Part shown: positions 12,032 to 52,558 of the stretch, piece by piece
Layout: the number at the start of each line of letters is the position of its first letter
How positions within the stretch are numbered: the stretch's first letter is position 1
Source of the DNA: Heliocidaris erythrogramma
Lineage: Eukaryota > Echinodermata > Echinoidea > Camarodonta > Echinometridae
Length of the DNA: 64,000 nucleotides
Direction of reading: 5' to 3'
Assembly: GCA_025617745.1 (NCBI GenBank)
Contig: CM046866.1
Span: 20,854,216 to 20,918,215 of the forward strand
Notes under the pieces: generated by a model
Seen by the model: the letters and a program-made list of their open reading frames with translations, nothing else
What the model was told of the DNA's origin: nothing
Database searches by the model: none
Program-made: the position numbers and the translations under genes

Positions 12032-13726
12032 CACTGTTGGTCATAATGGTAGCATAATTTTTTTTCTACCTTTCGTACACTATTGACAACAATACGAGTC
12101 ATTTTTTTTTTGCAAAATAAAGCTTATATCTTCACCGATTTTATTGATAAATATGTTCTCAACATATGAAATAAAAATATAAGACAAAAAATAATTCATA
12201 CAAACTTTATACACTGGTTTAAACCACTTTTGACAAACACAATCATCCAGACCTTGGATTCCTTGAAAAAATGTATCGTTTTTGGATAATGTTTAACCAT
12301 GATAATTTTATCGTGAAAATAAAATCTTGGGATCTTTTGATGATTGAAGGGAAGTGTTCCTCTTTTTAATCTTGTTGGGTCACTTAGTACCTGGTATGGC
12401 CACCTCTGGCACGCACCAGTGCCTCCACACGCCGTGGCATACTGTCCACAAGGTTGTTGATGGTGTTCAAGGGCAGTGCATCCCACTCTTTGGTCAGTGC
12501 CTGGGCTAACTCCTGCACATTTTGAGGATGATTGTTTCTCTCACTGATGGCACGGCCCAATGCATCCCAGACGCGCTCAGTGGGGGTTCATGTCGGGGGA
12601 ACAGGCAGGCCAAGGCATCTGCTGCACGTCCTCTGCGTCAAGGAATTCCCTCACCAGACGTGCCTTATGTGATCGAGCGTTGTCGTCTTGGAGCTGAAAG
12701 TTATTGCCATATACTGTTCTCGCGTATGGAAGACAATGGCGTTCCAGGATATCGCGGTACACGACGGCGTTGACGTTTCCTTCAGGTGCAGCCAATGGCG
12801 TTTTTCCGCCATAATGTATTCCGACCCATACCATCACTGAGCCTCCACCTGCTTGATTGGTTTCCTGGACACAGTCATTACGGAGGTTCTCGCCCCACAA
12901 TCGTCGAACCCTCTGCCTCCCATCGGTGCGGTCAAGGATGTACCGGCTTTCATCAGTGAAGATTACATGGCGCCAGTGACCAAGCTGCCATCTCCTGTGC
13001 CTTCTAGCCCACTGGAGTCGAGCAACCCGGTGGCGAACAGTGAGACGTGGAACCTTTGTCATTCGCCGAGCTCTGTAGCCATGTTGGACAAGTCTCCTGT
13101 TTACGGTTTCCCGTGAAACGTTCACTCCGAAGTGCCTCCTCCACAAGTGGCAAAGACGACTCGCTGGCATTCTCCGGTTCCTACGGCACATGTTCAGCAG
13201 TTGACGGTCATCCCGTGCGGATGTTCTTCATGGTCGACCTGTAGATCTCTCTGGACTCAAAGTACCCGCCTCTCGATGTCTTCTGAGGATGCGGCACACA
13301 CAACTCTGCGATAGTCCAAGAATATCTGCAATCTGGGCCTGTGTACGTCCATTCCGTCGGAGTGCAAGGACCCTCTGACAAATTGCAAGTGCCGTTGGGC
13401 GAGGCATAGTGTAAGGAATCAATGTACCAAATTTGGTAGGAATTGATCAAGCTAACTCTGAAAACGGGCTGTTAACACACGTAGGCTTTCTGCACGAAAT
13501 GGACAGCAAAACAACAGCAGAAAGGAGGCTCTGCCTTTCATAGCACCAAACAATAAGATAGGCCACGTTATGGAATGTTTCACTTGACCGACTTTTACCT
13601 CGACAATACAAAATCATTATGTTATCAATGAACCTGGTCAATATTATGTATTTAGGCTTTTAAATATGATTAAATCAACGGATGACTATGAAAATACGAA
13701 TTATGCTAACATTATGACCAACAGTG
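12032..13726 (-). mobile_element. Tc1-family transposon, full length
   Basis: TA dinucleotides at 12030-12031 and 13727-13728 flank terminal inverted repeats CACTGTTGGTCATAATG / its complement, with an AGCATAATT block just inside both ends. Length is 1695 bp, normal for Tc1. It contains a single transposase gene on the minus strand that is broken in two places, so the copy is complete but inactive. Confidence 0.95.
12384..13422 (-). pseudogene. Tc1-type DD34E transposase, one stop and one frameshift
   Basis: About 345 codons from ATG at 13422 to TAA at 12384. The N-terminus (MPRPTALAICQRVLALRRNG) is a helix-turn-helix with a GRP motif. The catalytic triad is D in FTDESRY, D in LQDDNARSH and E after SPDMNP, with 34 residues between the second D and the E: a Tc1 DD34E enzyme. 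Two lesions are visible: an in-frame TGA at 13228-13230 right after GRP (consistent with CGA to TGA at a CpG), and a one-base gain in the C-run near 12588 just before the catalytic Glu. Without them the frame is open. Cut-and-paste DNA transposase; inactive here. Confidence 0.92.
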
Positions 13727-26614: not shown

Positions 26615-26860
26615 GGCATACTCGTGATACAGGCCCCGCTAGTTTGCAATTGTAATCGATCATACCTTTGTATTAGGGTTCTAACTTCAGCCAGCTCACT
26701 AGTTATACTCGTGATACAGGCCCCGCTGCATGTCCTACAGTGCCCGAATGGGGCCTGTTCCACGACTATACTACTTATAATCGTTATCGATGCCCCGTGC
26801 TACGAAATTTCAAGCCACAGAACACAGCAGCGGGGCCTCGATATTGAGGACTGTTGTTCC
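26615..26860. repeat. Dispersed repeat with GATACAGGCCCCGC motifs
   Basis: ACTCGTGATACAGGCCCCGC occurs at about 26619 and 26707. Related motifs in both orientations occur at about 33383-33590 (GGGGCCTGTATCACGA, GGGGCCTGTAACACGAG), together with a shared ACTAGTGAGTTGGCTGAAG block. A short interspersed family of unknown class. Confidence 0.55.
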
Positions 26861-26991
26861 ATATCTACTCGTGAAAATGCCTTGGGGGTGGGGGGTGTAC
26901 AATAAAAGTAGGGAACGCAGTGAGCATTTATAATCGAACCAAGGGCGTAACATTTAAAGGACTATATGTACTGCCTGATGGATGGTGCCAT

Positions 26992-27103
26992 GGGGGGGGG
27001 GGGGGGGGGGGGGTTGAAATGTACATGTATTCATATATTCTTGATTTATTTATTCGTGGGCGTACCAGACGGGGCTGTGAACCGCTTCCCCCCCCCCCCC
27101 CCC
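26992..27103. repeat. Poly(G) and poly(C) tracts
   Basis: A run of 22 G at 26992-27013 and a C run at about 27090-27104 lie 80 bp apart, so the strand could fold back G against C. Confidence 0.8.
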
Positions 27104-27499
27104 CTTTCATTTTTATTCTGTTATTTTGCTCAACCCCTCTTTTGTTCCTGAGGACACCCCCCGCCTTTTTCAGTTGGACCCCCATATGAATTTCTCACCC
27201 CCTGATTTGTTCACATAATTTGAAGGTTTAATTCTGCTTTAGTCAGCTGTGCGCACATACAAACGCGACTCGAGTACGCGCTCGATCAGCTGGGTGGTCT
27301 TGGCATGGGTCCAGGTCATTGCTCTGTATAAATCGGTGTTTTGTTCGCGGCTGTTCTATTATAGCAATGGGGGGCAACGGAGAAGGGAGGGACAGAAGAG
27401 CTGCTATTTACGAATCTCACTCCGAGTACACAACAGTGCGTACGCGGGAAGGAAGAATTTTACACTTTCTCATTCGACATGATTCATCCACGGTATGCA

Positions 27500-29760
27500 A
27501 CATATCACTCCACAGCTTTAACGACTGCTCAATTCGCATTCACGGTCGTTCAACACACACATTGGATTGATGCGCCCCGTTTTACAATGGCACGGTCCAA
27601 ATCGAGCCTATATACGCAGCATTACATACTGTACGTGCTTTATATACATGACATCTTTTTTGCTATGTTTCTTTTTAATTATGCAAAATAGACGGCGGTT
27701 TTTTTCGACCAATCAGGACGAACCTGATATCACAAGAAAGAGTAACATCTTGGCTATTTGCTAGTCTTTGCCCCCATACATTTTGACACGTAAGTCAGAA
27801 GCTATAGGAGGAATACGAGAGCAATGAGTGCAAAAAAGTGCTTCTCCTCACACAAAAAGCATGAAACCATGCATTTTCAGTCGAAAATAGACGGCGGTTT
27901 TTTTCATTCAATTAAAAAATAACTGATATCATGAGATGTAGAATTAATCAAAGTTTTATAAACCGTTTGCCCCCATGAAAAATCTTGCGCGGTTCTCGAG
28001 ATATGATTTAAAATGTGCCGAAAAGGACGTGTTTTCGCCAAATTTCCGTCGAAAGATCGGGATCACGACCGGTTCGCGTTAAGTGAACATGACAAATTCA
28101 TATGCTTTTAATTTAATTTTTATCTGCCACTTCAGCGCAGTACCCCCCCCCCCCCCCAAAAAAAAGAAAAGAATATCAAGCCATTTTATTCATCTGTTCA
28201 TTTAAATAATAAAGCATGATGTACCGGGGGAACTACCTCCGACACAATCCCCCCTAAACAATCTCCCCCTAAAAGAGCAACCATCCCCCCCCCCCTTTTT
28301 TTTTATTGACTGCCAGAAATGTCATTAAATTTCATTTTGTTAAAAACTTACCTTTTCTTAATGACTCAATCGTAATAATGAATGGCGTTTTCTTTTAGAT
28401 AGGTCTACTGTTTCATTATTATTCCGAAAAAGTGAGATTTAAGGCCATTCTCTCTTCCAGATATCTAGTTCATTGGGAATCATGAGAGGATGACATCAGT
28501 TTCAGACCGCATTGCTAATTTGCCTCAAAGATGTAATTAATTGTACCACTTTCAATTTCTTTTTAATTGTAAGATCTTTCTCACATTTCCACGAAGATGT
28601 TTCTCCAGTTTTTCTACTTCTATTAAAACCAACTTTTTTTTTGTTCGGGTTCCCCTTTGAAGAATAATATTTCTTGTATATTGTTTTTCATAACAATTTA
28701 GGCTTACATATTACTACAGATCAAACTCTTATCTTATGATAATTTCCATTGACCGGACTTTTTCTTGTTTTACATCTTTACAAACTATCATTTCATGTAA
28801 ATAGTTAACATTTTTATATATTTCACATATTTTTGGCAAATGTATATACATGTATATATATTGTCGAAATTTTTAAACTTTCTTGTTATTTCCATCTCTT
28901 CATTTACATCTTTCAGTGTTTTTTTTTTCAGTTTTAGGCATACCTCGTCAGTAATAACGTCATAGAGTCTGACTTTTGAGACTATAGCTCTTAAACTGTA
29001 CATGATATGTAGGCCTAGCCGTTTCTGACATATCTACTAGAGTGGAATACTAATATTCACTTAAGACCCATTATCAATTTCTTGCCCGTTTTGGATCACT
29101 GTACATAGTCCTTTCCAGTAAAGAAAGTGACAAATTGGATTACATGATCGACATCTGTCCAGAATTAACAAAGTCATATAAAGTGATCATGTCTTAAATT
29201 GACGACTACTTCCAAAGATGCAGCATGCGTATGAGGATGAATGAAATGATTGTTTAATGATACACTCGTGGTGCTGTAAGGTCATGTGAGGTGTCTAGCA
29301 TGTATATGTATGAGTGAGAAACAATGTTATTATTTATTAGCCAATGGGTCATCAAACCTGGTAGCAGGCGCTAAATGCAAATCAGTTTACTATGGGCTGT
29401 CCCACCCCTCATTTTTATCTTGCCTGTACTATACCAATACGAAATTCTCATAACTCATCTTACAGAGGATCCGTTGTATGTGCATATAATAATGATTCAT
29501 CCAACCAAATGTCAAGACGGGGTTGTCTATCATAGGCTGGACATTTCATTTATGGACTGAATGTCTCTTATCTTGATGCTAATTCAAGATAGATTTTCTT
29601 GGTTTTTCACTACACAGGCGCACATACATAATATTTAAGTGAGATGTGCAAATCAATATCATGAAAGAAAGTAACAGTATATGCTTATAACATATAATAT
29701 AGCGTATAAATAACACACATTCACATAATTTTTTCTTCAGAATTATGAATACTTAATAAG
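27500..29760. other. No gene seen
   Basis: Mostly AT-rich. AATAGACGGCGGTTTTTTTC appears twice (about 27688 and 27886), a direct repeat with ~200-bp spacing. Poly(C) runs lie at about 28143-28157 and 28286. No recognisable coding domain. Confidence 0.5.
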
Positions 29761-29775
29761 TTGCAGACGGGCCTG

Positions 29776-29905
29776 ATTTGCATGTATGCAGCTTTCACCG
29801 TGAAAAAAGAGGGAAAGCAGGGGTCCAATCACATGTCAGTAAGATGGAGTAAATTGATCATCTGGAAAGGTATATATAACGTGCCTTTTCAAATAGATCA
29901 TCAGT
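29776..29905 (+). promoter_or_regulatory. Histone-like compact promoter (octamer, CCAAT, TATA, initiator)
   Basis: Upstream of the ATG at 29919 lie ATTTGCAT (29776-29783, the octamer motif), CCAAT (29825-29829), TATATATAA (29871-29879) and TCAGT (29901-29905) about 30 bp after the TATA box. Octamer, CCAAT and TATA in this order and spacing are characteristic of animal H2B promoters. The individual motifs are short, so the case rests on order, spacing and the histone-type 3' end of the same transcription unit. Confidence 0.55.
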
Positions 29906-29918
29906 ATTATCTTCAACG

Positions 29919-31242
29919 ATGGCTGGTAATTTTCGCAAGCGTGTCGATCCCTCAACATGTACCGTAGCAGATTTCTACAATCCGTGGAACTTTTATAGTT
30001 TATTCCTCTCTCCACCAAGAGATGTAGTGGAGTGGATGATGGACCAAGGGCTGCTCTGCGACAAGAAGGTGTGTCCACATTGCCAGAAGAATTGTCGTCT
30101 CGTAGAGCGTAAAGGCAAACATCACGGGTTTCGTTGGCGGTGTCGTAAGAACGATGTCCACAAAGATGTTGAATTTTCCATCACGGAGAATTTTTTCTTT
30201 AGACGAACCCACTTCGCATTCCAAGACGTCATGGAATTCATCCGCAATCTACTCCTGAAGAACTCCCTGAGATGTATGGCGACGCAGGCAGGATTCGATT
30301 ACAAGAAAACGGCAGTTGACTGGGCCAATTTCGTTCGGGATCTCTTTCGCCAATATGTTAAAGAAGTCTACAGCCAAGAAGCCCCCATCATGCTGTCTGG
30401 AGAGGTCGAAATATACGAGTCGCTCTTCGGGAGACGATGTAAATATCATAAGGGGAACCCGAATGTCGCACGAAGGTTTGGGTCGTCGGCCTCATCGAGC
30501 GCTCCTCCAACAAGCTCATCCTCTATCCAGTAGAGAATCGGAAGGAAGAGACCCTCCTCCACATCATCACTCGCCACATCGAACCTGGATCGACAATCCT
30601 CACCGACGGCTGGGCGGGTACGCGTCCCTGAACGACCTCGGCTTTGAACACTTCAACGTCATCCACAAAGAAACGTTTAAAGCCACGTATGAACACGTCG
30701 CCACGGGTGAAGTGAAAGAGGTGTGCACCAACCGGATCGAGGGGGCATGGAAGCATGCCAAAGACCACTTTCGCAAGATAAATGGCACCACCATGTCGAA
30801 CTTTGAAGCCCACATGGCAGAGATTATTTGGAGGAACCACGTATCAGGGCAGAACATATTCGAAGCATTTTTCTCTCTCCTGCGACGATGTTACCCACTT
30901 ACAACGCCCAATATCCTAGATGTCGAATCATCTCTCTTTGACACATGGACAGGTGAGAAAGCAAACCTTGCTGAAACGTCATTGACGAGGATAAGTGACG
31001 GCGAAGACGAGAGTGAAGACGAAGACGGCGTGGTCCCAGTCGCCGCCTCCACGCCGACTGGTCCTGCCTCCAAGAATCGACCCAAGAAGAGGAAAAAGAT
31101 GTCAGCCAGAAAAGTCTGCTGCCCCGCTGACTACATTGAGGTGCCTACCCATGACGAGAGACCAGGTCCCAGTGGCCAAGCCCAAAATAACTACTCAAGG
31201 GGTGCCTTCACATGGTCTGATGACGGCGATGACTTCCAATGA
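29919..31242 (+). pseudogene. ISXO2-like (IS1595/Merlin-type) transposase, frameshifted
   Basis: The N-terminal part (29919 to about 30470) has a zinc-binding pair region CPHCQKNCRL, then FRWRCRKNDVHKD and FFFRRTHF, the usual start of ISXO2-type transposases. Next comes the segment before GRRCKYHKGNPN, then a frame change near 30475 to VVGLIERSSNKLILYPVENR and LTDGWAG, then a second change near 30614 to NDLGFEHFNVIHKETF and TNRIEGAWKHAK. Expected catalytic residues: D of TDGW and E of NRIEG are present, but the first, normally D in the DESLFG motif, reads YESLFG (TAC for GAC). The C-terminus has an acidic stretch (DGEDESEDEDG) and a basic one (KNRPKKRKK). So it lacks one catalytic Asp and has two frameshifts. 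DDE-type DNA transposase, inactive in this copy. Confidence 0.8.
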
Positions 31243-31291
31243 CTTTCATAAGTCATTGGTGGAGATTTTATATCTCGCCAAATAATCCAAC

Positions 31292-31325
31292 GGCTCTTTT
31301 GAGAGCCCCAAAATTTCAAGAAAGA
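31292..31325 (+). terminator. Histone-type mRNA 3' end: stem-loop plus downstream element
   Basis: GGCTCTTTTGAGAGCC at 31292-31307 is a 6-bp stem with a 4-nt loop, preceded by CCAAC and followed after 9 nt by CAAGAAAGA (31317-31325). This matches the replication-dependent histone 3' processing signal: stem-loop bound by SLBP and the downstream element that pairs with U7 snRNA, whose sea urchin form is CAAGAAAGA. The loop reads TTTG where the usual form is TTTC or TTAC. It lies 49 nt after the stop of the transposase frame, the normal distance for a histone gene. No histone coding sequence is nearby. Confidence 0.8.
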
Positions 31326-31329
31326 ACTC

Positions 31330-32060
31330 GAATATATAACTCTCTTTCTAAAAAAAAAAAAAATTAATGAAAAAAATCAACCCCCCCCAAAAAAAAACCG
31401 CATTCGAGCCCCTCTTATAACGCCTTCTTAAAATGTCTTTTTCTTATCAAACTGATGATTTTATTTTCTTTCCCTCCACTCTACATTTCTTTCATAAAAT
31501 ATTTAACTTTCCTGCAGTAATGATATGATATTCTATTTTATTATTTTTTTTCCTTAATACATGATGAAAATGGTTTCCTAATATTCTTCTATACTTCCAA
31601 TGATATCAAATTTCACCATTCACTGTGAGGTCTTAGAACCAAGATATATATAAAAAAAAACCCATCTGCATATTAAAAACTGACAGGGGAAATGTTATTA
31701 CGATGAATTTCAGTTTTTCTTTATAAAAAATATCAATATATTTTAATATAAGGCCATAAATTAAAAAAAAGAGAATCATTTGATTTGATTTGATTTGATT
31801 TGATTTATTTTCCGTTTCAAAATAATTATACAAGATATATGTTGATCAAATGATTAAACATAAAACAATGTAATAAGTCTAGTACATGTATATCAAACTA
31901 ACATACAACGATAAAGGGTACTAAGAAGAGTACAAACAATAATTTACACAAACGGATCATAATTGACCTAACATATACAACGAAACGGAGGGGCATGCTA
32001 AGAAAGCAATGCTTGTATGATGCATGACCCAAGATCAAACTTAAAAGTCCTAGCCAAATT
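31330..32060. other. No gene seen; (GATTT)n microsatellite
   Basis: AT-rich DNA with poly(A) and poly(C) runs just after the histone-type 3' end and a TTTGA/GATTT pentanucleotide repeat at about 31780-31806. Confidence 0.6.
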
Positions 32061-32063
32061 CCA

Positions 32064-33330
32064 GAGGCAATTTTTTTATTGTGTAGTTAAGGCATGCCCC
32101 TTAGATTTTAAGGGGGCACGGCCGCTTTAGCCCTTGGATCCGCCCATGCCTTTGTCCCCTCCTTTGCAATTACCCCCCCCCCCCCTCGCCATTACCCCCT
32201 CAAAAATATACATTGGGGGAGTCCCCCATTAAAAAAATTGTTTAGATATTGGGGGAAAGTATCCCCTTATATCCCTTTAACCCCTCGCTTGCAATTCCCC
32301 CTCCGCCCCCCCCCCAATAAATTAAAGAGGCAATTTGTTTTATCGGGTACTTAAGGGTTTCAAAAGGGGGCCGCGGCCTATTCTGCCTCCCCCGGGATCC
32401 GCCCAAGCCTTTATCCCCTCCCTTGCAATCACCCCCCCCCCCCCGAAAAAAAAGTTTAAATATTGGGGGAAAGTATCCCCTTATATCCCTTTAACCCCTC
32501 GCTTGCAATTCGCCCCTCCGCCCCCTCCCCCCAATAAATTAAGGAGGCAATTTGTTTTATTGTGTACTTAAGGGTTTCAAAAGGGGGCCGCGGCCTATTC
32601 TGCCTCCCCCGGGATCCGCCCAAGCCTTTATCCCCTCCCTTGCAATCACCCCCCCCCCAAAAAAAAAGTTTAAATATTGGGGGAAAGTATCCCCTTATAT
32701 ATCGTTGTAACCCCTCCCTTGCAATCCCCCCACCACCACCCAAAAAAAGATGCAATTATTGTGTAGTTAAAGCATACCACTTAGAATTTAAGGGGGGCAC
32801 AGACGCTTTAGCCCTTGGATCCGCCCATGCCTTTATCCCCTCCCTTGCAATTACCCCCCCCCCCCCCCGCCATTACCCCTCCAAAATATACATTGGGGGA
32901 GCCCCCCATTAAAAAAATTGTTTAAATATTGGGGGAAAGTATCCCCTTATATCCCTTTAACCCCTCGCTTGCAATTCCCCCCTCCGCCCCCTCCCCCCCC
33001 CCCAATAAATTAAAGAGGCAATTTGTTTTATTGTGTACTTAAGGGTTTCAAAAGGGGGCCGCGGCCTATTCTGCCTCCCCCGGGATCCGCCCAAGCCTTT
33101 ATCCCCTCCCTTGCAATCACCCCCCCCCCCGAAAAAAAGTTTAAATATTGGGGGAAAGTATCCCCTTATATCCCTTTAACCACTCCCTTGCAATTCCCCC
33201 CTCCGCCCCCCCCCCCCCCAATAAATTAAAGAGGCAATTTGTTTTATTGTGTACTTAAGGGTTTCAAAAGGGGGCCGCGGCCGATTCGGATCCGCCCCTG
33301 CCTTTATCCCCTCCCTTGCAACTATGCCCT
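32064..33330 (+). repeat. Higher-order tandem array, A-B-B' twice
   Basis: Units begin with GAGGCAAT or GATGCAAT at 32064, 32327, 32544, 32749, 33015 and 33231, giving lengths 263, 217, 205, 266, 216 and a truncated last unit. The long type (A) contains TTAGATTTTAAGGGGGCAC or close to it; the short types contain AAAAGGGGGCCGCGGCC. Order A-B-B'-A-B-B' gives a ~687-bp higher-order period. All carry GGATCCGCCC and C runs, linking them to the MITE family at 14751. Open frames across it are repeat artefacts. Confidence 0.85.
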
Positions 33331-33375
33331 TATATGTAATCGTCAAGCCCCTCTACCGTGTTGTCTGTCTTCATT

Positions 33376-33595
33376 TTGCATAGGATGGGGCCTTTTTCAC
33401 GAGTTTATAATGTTAAATCGTGATACAGGCCCCATTTCCGTTTTGTAAGTTGTTCAACGTGGTTGCGCGGGGCCTGTAACACGAGTATAACTAGTGAGTT
33501 GGCTGAAGTTAGAAGTCTAAGAAGATGACTAGTAATCGATTACAAGACGGGTAAGTTGCGGGGCCTGTATCACGATATTGCCAGTAATATGTGGT
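33376..33595. repeat. GGGGCCTG dispersed repeat copy
   Basis: Shares TCGTGATACAGGCCCC and CACGAGTATAACTAGTGAGT with 26615-26860, in a different order and orientation. Confidence 0.5.
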
Positions 33596-38480: not shown

Positions 38481-40529
38481 GTATCAGCAAAGTTGAGTGT
38501 CATGGCAAGGCTTATAAATATTCATATTTGAGATCAATAATAGACAATTTATTAAAGAAGAGGTTCAGTTTTCCGTATGTCTTTACGTATCTCATCAATA
38601 TGTTCATGCTTCAGTGAGAAATTAACTGCTTTAGTGAGTGTTTTGAAATATTAGTTTTGGCAAGGTTTTAATTCAAGCTAGTTTTCTCAGTCAACCATAA
38701 GATTTTGATGGGATATGTCAAGACACAGAAAAGAAAGCCTATTCTTTCATATATTGCCTTTTAATGATCAGAATATAAAGGTTTCTAAGCCTTTTCAAGA
38801 CTCTTAACTTGGCTGATACTAGACAGAACCAATACAAAGTTTTGTCAACCGTGGATTTTGCACCATTTCACAATAATGGCTTTTGCTCACTCGAGCTCAA
38901 AATATTGCCAGATATTTTGGTGTCATTTGATAGAAGAGACCCCAATCTATCCACAAGTATGAAAATTTCCTACAAATACTTTGAAATATATATTTTGGGA
39001 GACTTTATCCAACTGTTTGGGGGACGCACTGTGTGTGTATATGATATTTCAATATAGAGTTGTCCTCAGCACTTCTAATTCGATTAAAAACTTTCAGTGA
39101 GTGCAACAAAGACTTTCTATAATAAACTTACAAAGTTCTTACTGCTGGCAGTTTGCTGAATCAGGTTTGATATCAGGTATCAAATTTTCTTGGAGGTCCC
39201 TTAAAGAAAAAGAAAATAAAGGGAATGCAAATGTGAGACAGGATGTTTGCATTAACTTTTACCTTAAAGGGATACTCAATCGCAGATTGTGGACGTTAAA
39301 TCATGTCGCGAGAGGGCACCGTGATCGTTACCTGAGCATGCCGTTGCCCCGTGAATACACAAATCTTTACAAGTAGCCTGATTGTCATGTAAACAATTAA
39401 CATTAATTAGCAAAGATTAAACTCTGTTATACATGTTTTTTTTTATTATAAATGTTTTGTATATAAACTCTGTTCCAATTAGTCACATACGGTTTGTAAT
39501 TGTAGTAAATGTATTTATGAGCCTTTAATGTTTGTGATTGTTTTTGTTTTAATTTGTAGCTGTTTATTTCAGCTAGACAGATCTAACCTTCAAAAAAACA
39601 AAATATAATTTAAATTAGCCTTAATAGAATGGAGATTTTTAATATCAGCTTATAAAAATCAGCTTGATAATATGTGTATTTTCAAAGAAAAATATGAGTC
39701 AGTATTTTTTGCACGTTGAAATATACATTACATGAAAGAGGATGGTATGGTAATTATTTTCATGTATATTCATAAATTATTAAAAGAACGGGGTAATGAT
39801 TGGATGAGAAAACCCGAAGTTATTCCGGCGTGCGAGTAGGTACCGGCTGCGCATGCCCCGAGCCGCCCCACGGGCGCGGGACTAAGTGCGCATGCGCATG
39901 CGATAATCACGTGATATTCGGGGTTACGATCGAATTTGATAAACCTAGTTTATCGAATTTGATAAACCTAGATTATCGAATTTGATAAACCTAGATTATC
40001 GAATTTTTGGACAACTATTTTGATAAACCTAGTTTATCGAATTTGATAAACCTAGATTATCGAATTTGATAAACCTAGTTTATCGAATTTGATAAACCTA
40101 GTTTATCGAACTTGATAAACCTAGTTTTTCGATTTGATAATCCTGGTTTATCAGAACCCTGAATATCGGCCGATATCATAGGTTTTTTGAAAAACCCGGT
40201 TTATCAATTCGGTAATCCTAGTTTTTCAATTCGATAAACTATAGGTTTATCAAATGTGATAATCTTAGTTTATCAGAACCCCAAATATCGACCGATATCA
40301 CAGGTTTTTTTGATAAACCTGGTTTTTCGATTCGATAAACCTAGCTTTTCAATTCGATAAACTAGGTTTATCAAATTTCGGTTGATAAACTAGGTTTATC
40401 GCTTGATATTCGGGGTTGTTGTTGAAAAACTAGGTTTATCGATTCGATAATCTAGGATTCTCGGCGAAAAACCTAGTTTATCGTCGATAAACTAGGTTTA
40501 TTGAATTTTTGGACAACTATCGTTCCATA

Positions 40530-41229
40530 GATGGTAATATGGTAAGTGAGTCTAAAGATAAAGCAAACGCCGTGGCATCCTTTTTCAAATCTATTGATAG
40601 ATCATTTTCCGTAAATGATAATGAAATTGATGACGATGCTCTATTTACCCACATTATGGATAATGACTTTATTAATGATTATTTTAATATGAATGAGTTG
40701 AGGAACGTTTTAAAAGAAATGAGAAACTCCGCTCCAGGTAAGGATGACATTTATGTGATTATGTTAAAAAACTTGCCCCCAATAGCAGAGTTATATAATG
40801 AAATCTGGGAAAATTCATGTTTTCCAAGCCAGTGGTATGAAGTTGTCCAGATACCAATTTTGAAACCTGGAAAAGAAGCGACGGATGTGTCATCTTACAG
40901 ACCAATTTCGTTATTATCTTCCCTCTTTGAAGTCATGGAAAAAATGATTAAAAATCGGCTGACTTGGTATTTAGATAAAAATAAACTTTTAAACCCAATT
41001 CAATCAGGATTCCGTAAATATCGAAATGTCAAAGATCATTTAATCAGACTCGAGACCGACATACACTCAGCATTCAATGAGAAAAAATATACTGTAGCTG
41101 TTTTTCTAGACTTGGAAAAGGCATATGACTCGTTATGGAAAGGAGGTCTCTTAAAAAAATTGTCAAGGTTAGAAATTCATGGAAAATTATTGTGTTTTAT
41201 TAAAGCTTTCTTAAAGAATAGATATTGTA
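40530..41229 (+). pseudogene. LINE ORF2, reverse transcriptase N-terminal half
   Basis: An open frame with NSAPGKDDIY, ILKPGKEATDVSSYRPISLL (RT motifs 1-2), QSGFRKYRNVKDHL and VFLDLEKAYDSLW (motif A, catalytic Asp in FLDLEKAYD). This is a non-LTR retrotransposon RT. It is interrupted after codon TGT at 41226-41228 by a TA-flanked element and resumes at 42542. No stop or frameshift in this part. Confidence 0.9.
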
Positions 41230-42539
41230 CACTGTTAAAACATGTATTAAAAAACTACGGATTAAAAAAATGTTGATTAAAAATCGCTCAACATTGGTTA
41301 TAAAATGAATGTTGGTTAAAAATGACTTTTAATCTTGCGTGGGTTAAAAATATTGTTGATTAAAATTATTGTTTTTATTCTTGTTGGTTACTTTGTAACC
41401 AACATTGATTAAAAACAGTGTTCTCTGCTTTCCCGCCAAACTGATAGTGCTAACTGTCAAGACACTTTATCTTTTTGTTGGTTAAAAGTTTGATCAAAGT
41501 TGATTAAAATACCAATCGCGTGACCGAACAGCGCATGCGCATATGGATTTGGAACAAATTCGCTGCGCACAAATCTATCACAGAAATTGTTTGCGATAAA
41601 AATGGAAGGCATTGTCATTCAAGTCGCTGAATGAGTGGGGACTTTCAAAGAGTTTGTCGGCGTGTTTGAAGGTGAGAAACTATTATTCATATATGTGATT
41701 GTTGTCCAGCTTAATCTTGGGAAGAAATAGATCTACAGTGTGCTCTTTCTTTCTAATTTAAACGGCTTGGGAGCAAGTTCGACCTGCTCGATCTGGACTA
41801 GACCTGGCTAAGCCAGACCCACCGGTAGATTTACTGACTGCGCCTATGGTAGCGAGGAGGCGACGCCGGCGGTATGGCGGTGTGTTCAACTTCGCGCATG
41901 TCCATATTTCGCGGACAGGGCAATATGACAAACACTGAAACTAGAACAGTTTTTTGAGAAAAAGATATAAGCACCAATGTAGGCGTAGGTGTAGTCTACC
42001 GGTGGGCCTGGCTTAGTCAAGTCTAGTCCAGGTCTGAGAAGGTCGAACTTACCAAACCGCTGAAAGTAGATCACTGAGTAGATCTATTTCGTTATAAGGC
42101 TAGCTAGACAACAATTACAGATATGAAAAGAGTTTCTCCGGGGAGTTTTTCATCAAATAAATCTAACCAACAAATGGTTAAACATTTAACCAACAATTTG
42201 TTTCAGTTTAATCAACACCATTTTGACCAATGTTGAGCAAAATATGATTAACCAACAAATGGTTAAACATTTAACCAACGAAATAAAACTAACCAACAAA
42301 TGGTTAAACATTTAACCAACAATATGTTTTAGTTTAATCAACACCAATTTAACCAACGTTGAGCAAAATACGATTAACCAACAAATGATTAAAACTTTTA
42401 ATCGACCACAGGTTAAACTTTAATCAACAGGCCGTTGATTAAAGTTTTAACCTACAAATGTGTGGTTCACCTGGTAACCCTCGGTTGATTAAAATTTTAA
42501 CCAACAAGATTAAAAATTTTAATCAACGTTCTAACAGTG
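41230..42539. mobile_element. TA-flanked 1310-bp inverted-repeat element in the LINE RT
   Basis: Starts CACTGTTAAAAC and ends GTTCTAACAGTG, with TA on both sides (41228-41229, 42540-42541). Ends are packed with GTTGATTAAA and TTTAATCAAC motifs in both orientations. An inner inverted repeat pairs 41775-41835 with 41993-42060 (AGTTCGACCTGCTC, GACTAGACCTGGCTAAGCC). Removing the element and one TA restores the RT frame. TA duplication suggests Tc1/mariner-type mobilisation. No transposase, so non-autonomous. Confidence 0.88.
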
Positions 42540-45132: not shown

Positions 45133-45762
45133 TGTTTCTGTAGTAGACAGGGATACCATTAGCCTGGAAAAGGCTCTATGAAGAGTTTGGCAAGAGTTTT
45201 TTTTAAAAAGCTGGGCGTTATCGTGGATTAAAAGCAAAAGTAACCAGTCTGTTCACTGACAAGTGACACTGACAGTGACACTGTGCTGCAGGTCACTGCT
45301 GGCCATTCAAAAGCGTTGCGAACCGCGACTACAAAATAGCGACTAGGCCTACACACTTTTTGATTATTTAAATTACATCCTTTCTCGAAGTAATTATATT
45401 ATAGTACCAAATCGAGCTTAAACTATCACTTTATTGCGCTCCCTAACTTAAAATTGTTAAAAAACTAACTTACAACTTACCAAAAAATGATGATTTATTG
45501 CGTCCTCTGCCATGTCTGCCCACAGTAGCTGTGGACCTGGACCGAAAATTCTGTCTCTCTCGTTAGTGAGCTCTTCACTTAGAGACAGAAATGGCCGTAT
45601 CACTCACTCATAGCTACATTCCTATACTTCGTGTGTATAATGTAGGCAGTCATACACCTCAACTTTTTAAAACACCACTGCACAGAAGTCACAAACATTC
45701 ACTCAAAATCGGCATTTAATTTACAAAAACCGACCACAAAATATCCAAGAAATACAATAAAT

Positions 45763-46203
45763 TCAACTCACCGATGTTGGAAAAGATATTTCCAAAAATG
45801 AAATCCGTAATTTACTGTTGATTCTCGCGAAACGAGCTATCGGAGTCAATGTGTACATTTCCTGGTCGCCGCGGGCGCTGACATCTCCCCAAAAGAGTTT
45901 TGTCCTTAAAAATTCGGTCCCTGTGGCATACACGGAAAAGTCCCGATTTTCTGTGTGTGCGATCGTAAAGATCGACGTGCGCTTGCGATCCCGAGTTTCT
46001 TCGTGGACAAAAATTTTATTGGCCGATTTTAGTCTAAGACATCGGCAGTATGTAAACAACACGCGATCGCGAAACAAATCGGCGGGGATTTCTCCGGTTT
46101 TGGACAAGATTTTGACTTTGGATTTTGCTGAAAATATCAAAAGTTCTTCCTCACGGCCATTTGAGGTAGGAGTGAGATTTTTAAGGGCTGAATTTGAAAG
46201 CAA
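45763..46203 (-). CDS. Unknown ORF, 146 codons (duplicate 1)
   Basis: Minus-strand frame with LSKTGEIPADLFRDRVLFTY, CRCLRLKSANKIFVHEETRD, RTSIFTIAHTENRDF and TKLFWGDVSARGDQE. I do not recognise the family. The frame is retained over ~85 codons in the second copy before a one-base shift. A possible acceptor (TTTTGATATTTTCAG) lies at the start of the conserved part, so this may be an exon rather than a single-exon gene. No start context or promoter evidence. Confidence 0.35.
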   Translation of the reverse strand: MLSNSALKNLTPTSNGREEELLIFSAKSKVKILSKTGEIPADLFRDRVLFTYCRCLRLKSANKIFVHEETRDRKRTSIFTIAHTENRDFSVYATGTEFLRTKLFWGDVSARGDQEMYTLTPIARFARINSKLRISFLEISFPTSVS

Positions 46204-46574
46204 GTATTTAAAATATTTATCTTATTTTCCCCCCATACCTTTACTACACGCGACAGAAAATAGCAACTATTTTTGCATGTTGTATTCATAGTGGTCAATA
46301 TGACCACTATTCGTGGTGTGGTATCACTCACTCATAGCTACATTCCTATACTGCGTGTGTATAATGTAGGCAGTCATACACCTCAACTTTTTGAAACACC
46401 ACTGCACAAAAGTCACAAACATTCACTCAAAATCGGAATTTAATTTACAAAAACCGACCACAAAATATCCAAGAAATACAATAAATTCAACTCACCGATG
46501 TTGGAAAAGATATTTCCAAAAATGAAATCCGTAACGTAATTTACTGTTGATTCTCGCGAAACGAGCTATCGGAG

Positions 46575-46871
46575 TCATTGTGTACATTTCCTGGTCGCCG
46601 CGGGCGCTGACATCTCCCCAAAAGAGTTTTTTGTCCTCAAAAATTTGGTCCCTATGGCGTATACGGAAAAGTTCCAATTTTCTGTGTGCGCGATCGTAAA
46701 GATCGATGTGCCCTTGCGATCCCGAGTTTCTTCGTGGACAAAAATTATATTGGCCGATTTTAGTCTAAGACATCGGCAGTTTGTAAACAACACGCGATCG
46801 CGAAACAAATCGGCGGGGATTTCTCCGGTTTTGGACAAGATTTTGACTTTGGATTTTGCTGTAAATATCAA
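46575..46871 (-). pseudogene. Unknown ORF, duplicate 2, frameshifted
   Basis: Second copy of the frame at 45763-46203, matching from KVKILSKTGEIPADLFRDR to KFLRTK. It then loses frame at an extra T in TTTTTTG near 46629 and ends in unrelated residues. Confidence 0.4.
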
Positions 46872-47194
46872 AAGTTCTTCCTAACGGCCATTTGAGGTAG
46901 GAGTGAGACTTTTAAGGGCTGAATTTGAAAGCAAGTATTTAAAATATTTATCTTATTTTCCCCCCATACCTTTAGTACATGCGACAGAAAATACCAACTA
47001 TTTTACAGTAATGTACCCGTGAGTGGTATCACTCGTATCAGCAAGCAATGGTCATATTGATTAGGAAATATACATGTGTGTATACTGGGTATTGGGGATA
47101 CAGATGTAATTTTGTTTCAAATGGAGGTTTTTGTGGGCAAACTTATACTTAGGTTTCAGTCTATATAAATCAATTTAAAGATAACATTTAACAA

Positions 47195-51334: not shown

Positions 51335-52558
51335 CTAAGCTTTGAGAGTTATTTTCAATCTTAGAACATATATCTCGCTGGTTTCCGAATGTTGCAACTG
51401 GATCTGGTCGTAGTTTTTTGAGTTCGCTGGGTTTTGAGTTTGATTGATCTGAGTCTCTGATGATGAAGTTGCTTGGTGTCGTGGTGTATCTGGTTGGGTG
51501 GACGTGGTGTGGTCTTCGTCGAACCTTACACGCTTTGGAGTTGGGTATGCTGATGGAATCTCTCTCAGGTGAGATCGGTTCCGTCTGAGGATTCCTCCGT
51601 TGGGTGTCGATACTTCATACGACCGAGGTTCTTCACAGATTTGGGATACTTTGGCTGGTATCCAAATATGATCTTTGGGGTGTAGGACTCTGACTGGCTG
51701 TCCTACATGGAGTGGTGGAAGATCTGAACCTGCATGTCGATCATGCGTTTCCTTCATCTTGTTTTGACGATTCAAGAGATGATCAGTGATTCTTTCAGCT
51801 AGTCCGTTTGATCTTGGATAGTGCAGAGAAAAGGTGGTGTGTTTAATGGACCACTTCTTGCACATGACCTGGAATGGCTTTCCTACAAATTGTGGACCGT
51901 TGTCTGATATGATCTCCTCTGGTGGACCAAATAGCCTGAAGATCCCACTCATCACGTTTGCTACCACTGCACTTGATGTATCAGTCAGCTTATAGACTAC
52001 CGGATGTTTGGAGTAGTAGTCGGTGACGAGCAAGTACTCTTGTCTGTTGAGCATGAACAAGTCTGTTCCTAGTCTAGTCCATGGTGCTGGAGGTACATCA
52101 TGGGGAAGCAACAGCTCCTTCTGTTGCCTTGCTTGGTGTTCCTGGCATGCATCACATTGCTTTGTGATACGTTCAATGTCTTTGTTGATGTTTGGCCAGA
52201 ACACTGTCTCACAAGCTAGTCGCCGTGTGCTCTCAATTCCCATGTGTCCATGGTGAAGTTGTGTAAGGATATCTTCCCTAAATGTCCTTGGTATAATCAC
52301 TTGACTTCGTTTGAAGAGTACTCTGTGTGACACGCCAATCTCTTCTCTGTAAGACCAGAATTGTCTTAGTGATGTCGGCAGCTCCTTGACTGTCTCAGGC
52401 CAGCCCTGGGTGACTATCTGCCACAATGACCTAAGAACAGGGTCCCTTGATGTTTCCTTTTGGAGTTCTGCCCTTTTGTGTTGTCCGAAGAAGATCAGGT
52501 TAATTTCGTGGGAGTCCTCAACTTCAGAGCAGATGGCTTCCACTCTGTGGAACATCAC
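51335..52558 (-). pseudogene. Gypsy-type integrase region
   Basis: An open 407-codon frame. The zinc-binding HHCC domain lies around residues 100-145 (HHGHMGIE, TKQCDACQEHQ). The catalytic core has D in LGTDLFMLN and D in IISDNGPQFVG, and E in YPRSNGLAER. After that E the frame jumps to LLNRQNKMKE and a C-terminal HPKDHIWIPAKV part, so about 100 residues usually found between are missing: an in-frame internal deletion. The Ser/Thr/Gln-rich tail lacks a chromodomain. Integration would not be expected from this copy. Confidence 0.88.

Follow-up and report, generated by a model that had tools for sequence, protein, structure and literature searches.

For work on the processing of histone RNA, sea urchin embryos are a classical system. 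In animals, poly(A) is taken to terminate all mRNAs except those of replication-dependent histones, according to a previous study (PMC6303110). On histone mRNA, SLBP sits on a hairpin and the U7 snRNP on a downstream element, and cleavage takes place a few bases past the hairpin with no addition of poly(A), in line with two reports (PMC6303110, PMC3169594). A histone hairpin within a DNA transposon has been described as well: in the accessible text of the second report, Tm1-HH of root-knot nematodes is presented as a set of non-coding, non-autonomous Mutator/Foldback-type elements with this hairpin, and the transposase-coding Tm1-A was predicted to use poly(A) signals (PMC3169594). Among the papers listed by a search of the open-access literature (with few subscription papers and no preprints), none described a histone 3' end on a transposase gene, in agreement with the sequence-only reading, which knew of no described case; on the accessible text, Tm1-HH is the nearest. 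The DNA transposon and the histone 3' signal are each known; within the literature searched, it is new that the two are combined on transposase genes, and in four transposase types.

The window is the whole 64,000-nt stretch of Heliocidaris erythrogramma DNA that was analysed. It contains a transposase gene of a transposon family termed here family A (sister family: family B), for which a stem-loop 49 nt after the stop and a downstream element 9 nt further on had been proposed. Both were located at these positions, and the 3' side of the gene has the following features:

31292..31307, + strand: histone-type stem-loop GGCTCTTTTGAGAGCC, identical in all four family A copies
31317..31325, + strand: histone downstream element CAAGAAAGA, identical in all four family A copies
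31236..31259, + strand: extra hairpin spanning the stop codon, CCAATGACTT/AAGTCATTGG, with a similar one in family B
31350..31363, + strand: run of A, about 25 nt past the downstream element, with a similar run in family B

The hairpin begins 49 nt past the transposase TGA (31240-31242). Like the replication-dependent histone 3' end, the transposon signal consists of a six-pair GG...CC stem, a four-base U-rich loop, AAAC/ACCA-like flanks and CAAGAAAGA, spaced as in the host (the Harbinger type described below has a weaker element). Unlike it, the signal lies on transposase genes, and family A has a UUUG loop and a spacer of 9 nt, one base shorter than the 10 nt of most host histones. The UUUG loop is also found 3' of a real H2B gene in the same genome, and the exact window hairpin occurs five times genome-wide, four times after a family A transposase and once after an H2B gene (L001/L009). 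The stop-codon hairpin reads ATGACTT/AAGTCAT in family A versus ATGAGTT/AACTCAT in family B, with one pair compensated (C/G). Ahead of the histone-type stem-loop, from the stop codon on, two hairpins are predicted (31236-31281; z -3.3 for the whole stretch), the first of which is kept in family B.

The Rfam family Histone3 (RF00032) gave 28.7 bits at the window site (E 7.5e-7 in a 106-base stretch), below its gathering score of 34, and an Rfam scan of the window at the gathering threshold returned no match. A covariance model made from host histones only gave 52.3 bits (E 2.7e-10, 220 kb searched), and across the window it detected no strong site besides 31284-31329. CAAGAAAGA is exact in 28 of 31 aligned host histone ends, all picked by a pattern requiring AAGARAGA, and occurs on its own four times in the window versus one expected. 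Such single motifs (the octamer described below is another) are common, which might favour chance, or a histone gene fragment lying beside the transposase, as the source of the site. The probability of either is negligible, and both were rejected: reversed-pattern controls gave 0 and histone-model scores lie above background, tblastn with five host histones as queries found no histone coding sequence in the window (best E 0.053), so that the unrelated histone neighbour envisaged by the sequence-only reading is missing, and the signal moves with the element.

Merlin transposons produce target duplications of 8-9 bp. The genome encodes bindin (PF02084, E 2e-68), a sea urchin marker, which fits its sea urchin origin. 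In a scan of 1.06 Gb (26 contigs), three further copies of the window element were recovered (L006, L007, L008), and the comparison delimits a Merlin-like transposon:

26615..33582, + strand: Merlin-like DNA transposon, family A, common to L006, L007 and L008, with inverted repeats marking its ends
26615..26639, + strand: left terminal inverted repeat GGCATACTCGTGATACAGGCCCCGC, 25 bp
33558..33582, - strand: right terminal inverted repeat GGCAATATCGTGATACAGGCCCCGC (on the - strand), 25 bp
27183..28105, no strand given: nested insert, absent from the other three copies; aligned blocks end at 27182 and restart at 28105/28106
29919..31242, + strand: transposase gene (ISXO2-like DDE), ATG at 29919, broken in the window copy

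The element measures 6,968 bp in the window including the nested insert, and 6,045 bp in L007. Its 25-bp inverted repeats are complete in the window copy and in L006, and the right end of L007 and L008 is without the last six bases. Family A has been mobile in the past: target duplications of 8 bp flank L006 on contig C11 (AGAAAAAT) and L007/L008 on C15 (ATTAAAAC), and none was seen at the window copy. Identity of the other three copies to the window is 99% across the 1.6-kb gene unit; across about 5.5 kb, with gaps counted, it is 98.5-98.7% for the two C15 copies and 92% for the C11 copy. Because the two C15 copies have the same flanks, they represent one insertion that was later duplicated (or an assembly duplicate), which leaves three insertions among the four copies.

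The single large sense frame of L007 is the transposase (441 aa), and this frame is intact in three of the four family A copies. The exception is the window copy, whose frame is broken by two frameshifts and carries Tyr in place of the first catalytic Asp, beside an intact RNA signal, as had been described. The L006 transposase belongs to PF12762 (84.7 bits, cut-off 27, E 8.7e-24), and the window pieces score under that cut-off. In all four copies the signal of hairpin and CAAGAAAGA follows the stop at a distance of 49 nt; that it is peculiar to a single damaged copy was rejected, because three intact copies carry it. There is strong support for the core idea that a transposase gene here has a histone-type RNA 3' end and that this end moves together with the transposon. 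The window also holds other mobile-element genes, namely a Tc1-type transposase (12577-13191, - strand; HTH_Tnp_Tc3_2, DDE_3), a reverse transcriptase (40509-41276, + strand) and an integrase (51335-52558, - strand).

Family A resembles Merlin (IS1016/IS1595-like) in its PF12762 transposase, its inverted repeats starting with GG and its 8-bp duplications, and differs in its 6-kb length, its long 3' part without coding sequence and its histone-type RNA end, which is missing from 13 loci of other Merlin lineages in this genome. With Tm1-HH, as far as the accessible text describes it, the present elements share the histone hairpin within a DNA transposon, but here the hairpin follows intact transposase frames, is accompanied by a downstream element and occurs with four transposase types. 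Family A is not a member of Tm1-HH, since it is coding, carries PF12762 and makes 8-bp duplications, whereas Tm1-HH is given in the same partial source as non-coding with 9-bp duplications (PMC3169594).

The DNA search with the family A gene unit also yielded six diverged relatives, four of which carry GGCTCTTTTCAGAGCCACCACAACTCCAAGAAAGA, of host histone type; of the other two, L024 is without the gene end and L020 is decayed. A protein search listed 81 matches, which were grouped into 30 loci. In family B, the signal is a perfect host-type histone end and is present in all seven copies retaining their 3' end (L029, L030, L031, L032, L035, L036/L042 and L038), 26-32 nt from the stop in the three copies measured. 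The expectation that other copies would keep the stem-loop and CAAGAAAGA at a fixed distance was thereby borne out in four of four family A copies, and the signal itself in seven of seven of family B. Overall protein identity between the A and B transposases is about 55%, and within the catalytic part it is 65-67%. Six deletion derivatives of family B carry the signal too. ATTAAA lies between the stop and the hairpin in family B, so poly(A) may be used there. The family B elements L021, L022, L024 and L025 have inverted arms hundreds of bases long and are foldback-like.

Other Merlin lineages are 46-56% identical to A in the catalytic part (L053, 40%). Their 13 loci, which extend 1.0-1.7 kb beyond the last matched residue (nine checked) and some of which may lack gene ends, gave no signal (Rfam, E up to 1); together with L043, a decayed A-like piece, they reached at most 11.6 bits with the histone-only model. 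In a small tree with these lineages as outgroup, A and B are neighbours, suggesting a single gain of the signal before the A/B split as the simplest reading.

Genome-wide, the pattern CTTTTNARRGCC followed by 4-20 bases and AAGARAGA gave 66 sites, all of which were read, and the reversed-pattern control gave 0. Histone genes precede 35 of them (33 by tblastn, the H2A and H2B of L009 by Pfam), and one more (L090) is H1-like by eye, with a broken stem and no tblastn match. Transposon-linked sites number 22: four of family A, 13 of family B (seven with transposase and six deletion derivatives, five by blastn and L078 by 3' sequence), two of Tc1/mariner and three of pogo type. Six sites (L063-L066, L067-L068) follow frames without family assignment, and Pfam found nothing over cut-off in the three proteins beside L063, L066 and L067; the last two (L073, L074) are stemless and are attributed to chance. 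One single spacing, giving a site of 31 bases, is found in 56 of the 66 sites although 17 were allowed. The same pattern in viral contigs gave 35 matches of 24-40 bases, none of them 31 bases long, which looks like chance.

Two further patterns, again with reversed controls of 0, showed five pogo sites that were also read in the pogo sample below (L144-L148) and six Harbinger sites (first pattern) and four Tc1-like sites, among them L153 and L156, besides seven other sites (second pattern). An intact or near-intact hairpin is thus present at 39 transposon sites (Merlin 17, pogo 10, Tc1-like 6, Harbinger 6, with L149 and L152 counted); two of the six Harbinger and four of the six Tc1-like sites were read in sequence and the rest placed by coordinates. 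In every transposon case read, the hairpin is on the sense strand, 24-67 nt after located stops, except at L157. As for the sites without family assignment, L063-L066 (C1, C11, C21, C2) are dispersed UUUA-loop hairpins with CAAGAAAGA, perhaps of another mobile element, with a fifth such site by pattern at C2:61071213. L067 and L068 (C12:50860019 and C12:50888150) are near-identical, lie 28 kb apart and have a perfect hairpin and CAAGAAAGA; the frame beside them starts with MDSNLYSNQQ and has no Pfam match.

The pogo-type sites L069 and L070 follow PF03184 DDE_1 transposases (E 1e-36 for L069), and L072 was assigned to pogo by 3' sequence common to L149 and L150. In a pogo sample chosen by protein likeness and blind to the signal (nine further listed matches reaching the last residue), seven have both the hairpin and the downstream element, which in L149 carries a single change; the remainder are L150, decayed, and L151, without signal. 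The Tc1/mariner-type sites L061 and L062 belong to PF13358 DDE_3 (E 1e-13). Four listed relatives of 42-52% identity that reach the C-terminus were sampled by protein likeness, relatives of about 31% being left out, and the signal was found in two: L153 and L156 have GGCTCTTTTCAGAGCCACCATAATGTCAAGAAAG, 26 nt after the stop, whereas L154 and L155 have no hairpin and carry GAAATAAAGC (AATAAA) instead, so that both kinds of 3' end occur among related transposases. Approximately twenty or more Tc1-like transposase fragments lie on one strand at C5:41.395-41.409 Mb, apparently as a tandem array.

The Harbinger-type transposase of L157 is PF13359 DDE_Tnp_4 (E 6e-13). Seven dispersed copies of this type are 98-100% identical, and six have the hairpin 46-47 nt past the aligned part, one of them (C14) with a broken stem pair. 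The frame of L158 ends about 33 nt before the hairpin, and that of L157 continues into the hairpin. As its downstream element this type has CCAAAGAAAA, which matches CAAGAAAGA poorly. Other Harbinger relatives among the at least 150 matches listed have no site of these patterns adjoining.

At least four transposase types (Merlin, pogo, Tc1/mariner and Harbinger) carry the hairpin at the same place, and the best reading of the sequences is that DNA transposons repeatedly adopted histone-type 3'-end formation. One could also suppose that these are host genes derived from transposases and placed under histone-type control, and not transposons, as each family has few copies with an intact frame. 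This is very improbable, given the inverted ends, 8-bp target duplications and near-identical dispersed copies of family A, the deletion derivatives of family B and the dispersed, near-identical Harbinger copies.

The histone-only covariance model was built from 31 of the 35 host histone 3' ends, with near-identical rows dropped and no transposon rows, and was run on 53 sources (220 kb), L157 being outside that run. Family B scored 61.7-62.8 bits and all family A copies 52.3. Pogo L069/L070 scored 59.2, the pogo relatives and L072 33.9-46.7, and the decayed L150 26.5; Tc1 L061/L062 scored 57.8/55.1 and L153/L156 50; L066 scored 54.9, L067/L068 48.3 and L063-L065 46.4. The best background matches (21.9, 19.7 and 19.0 bits) belong to one repeat, which by eye has no such hairpin. 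In the window, a repeat that L006 contains too is present in two adjacent copies, 45605-46273 and 46329-47025, which give the best background matches of the model there, at 19-20 bits.

Standard pairs make up 113 of the 114 stem cells in 19 transposon ends, and stem changes occur on both sides in 12 cells (two pairs) and on one side only in none. When the stem partners are slid, pairing drops to at most 63%. The cells paired, the cells changed on both sides and the score each beat 500 of 500 shuffles. The count of pairs with both-side changes (reached by 170 of 500 shuffles) and that of further pair types (reached by 500 of 500) are not above shuffles, and, as rows are related within families, the covarying cells are not independent events.

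These data also bear on what the signal does. Its palindrome and CAAGAAAGA might act on DNA, as a protein-binding site or terminator that came to resemble histone ends by convergence and has no RNA function, and a second palindrome indeed lies nearby in families A and B. We regard this as improbable, because both parts, the spacing and the flanks fit the histone-only model, the sense strand and the short distance to the stop are kept in the cases detailed above, the signal is common to four transposase types with different DNA-binding parts, and two relatives (L154, L155) have AATAAA in its stead. Slightly less improbable, though still unlikely, is a signal that was inherited once and now sits idle, the messages receiving poly(A) at weak or distant sites: in the window copy the signal is intact next to a broken frame, and family B has ATTAAA ahead of the hairpin. 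However, copies that are intact and have moved recently retain the signal, as do lineages whose proteins differ by 45%, its stem changes are compensated, and family A has no AATAAA or ATTAAA within 300 nt downstream of the stop.

Upstream of the gene, the sequence-only reading had recognised an H2B-like promoter, the parts of which are as follows:

29776..29783, + strand: octamer ATTTGCAT, in four family A copies, putative promoter role
29825..29829, + strand: CCAAT box, kept in four family A copies
29871..29879, + strand: likely TATA box TATATATAA, kept in four family A copies

The three are present in the proposed order, which occurs once in the window versus 0.1 expected (40 first-order resamplings, with spacing limits set post hoc). 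The octamer itself is at chance level (six in the window versus 6.5 expected) and is absent from all three family B copies tested; in L030 of family B, no octamer, CCAAT or TATA was found within 300 nt. The case for an H2B-like promoter is accordingly weak, and such a promoter (octamer, CCAAT and TATA) is not a trait common to the sister family.

Copying of histone gene control, which had also been suggested, gained no support: up to 60 nt before the hairpin in ten transposon ends (two supplying only about 33 nt), compared with 33 histone genes, gave no match above 20 shuffles each. A recent capture of a histone gene end was rejected on this ground. An ancient capture, by which each transposon type took a host histone 3' end (transduplication), is a possibility to which we give distinctly less than even weight. 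The spacing and the flanks (AAAC before, ACCA after) are close to host histone ends, in family B above all, yet the stretch before the hairpin resembles histone genes no better than shuffles do; such a capture would concern the origin only, and the signal could still work. Judging from these comparisons, the hairpin may have arisen by old capture or by growth from scratch. As a whole, the sequence-only reading is partly supported.

We consider, with a probability of roughly 75%, that the window site is the 3' end of a Merlin-like transposase RNA processed in the histone manner without poly(A), likely giving transposase in S phase and early cleavage. The processing of the RNA, its S-phase timing and the benefit to the transposon are what we infer by analogy with histone genes. 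Stem-loop binding protein would bind the hairpin of the transposase pre-mRNA and U7 snRNP would bind its CAAGAAAGA; a cut a few bases past the hairpin would leave a transposase message without poly(A). A search for the U7 snRNA family gave no match in this genome, and none in the control genomes either. If transposase RNAs are processed like histone RNA, transposase supply would follow S phase, and the protein would be made in S phase and early cleavage. The likely benefit is that copies jumping from replicated to unreplicated DNA would gain in number.

We lean towards the broader view that at least four transposase superfamilies, independently or by exchange, have put transposase under histone-type 3'-end control and so form a second poly(A)-less class tied to S phase. 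The messages of intact transposase genes that possess a complete histone 3' end would represent a second class of animal mRNA without poly(A), and four transposase types with the same device would be a strong example of convergence upon a single host pathway. If true, this would explain the way in which some transposons coordinate jumping with replication; it would also be a general transposon strategy to supply transposase during DNA replication and in cleavage-stage embryos. Cell-cycle control of transposition is an old question, which would hereby become testable in sea urchin embryos.
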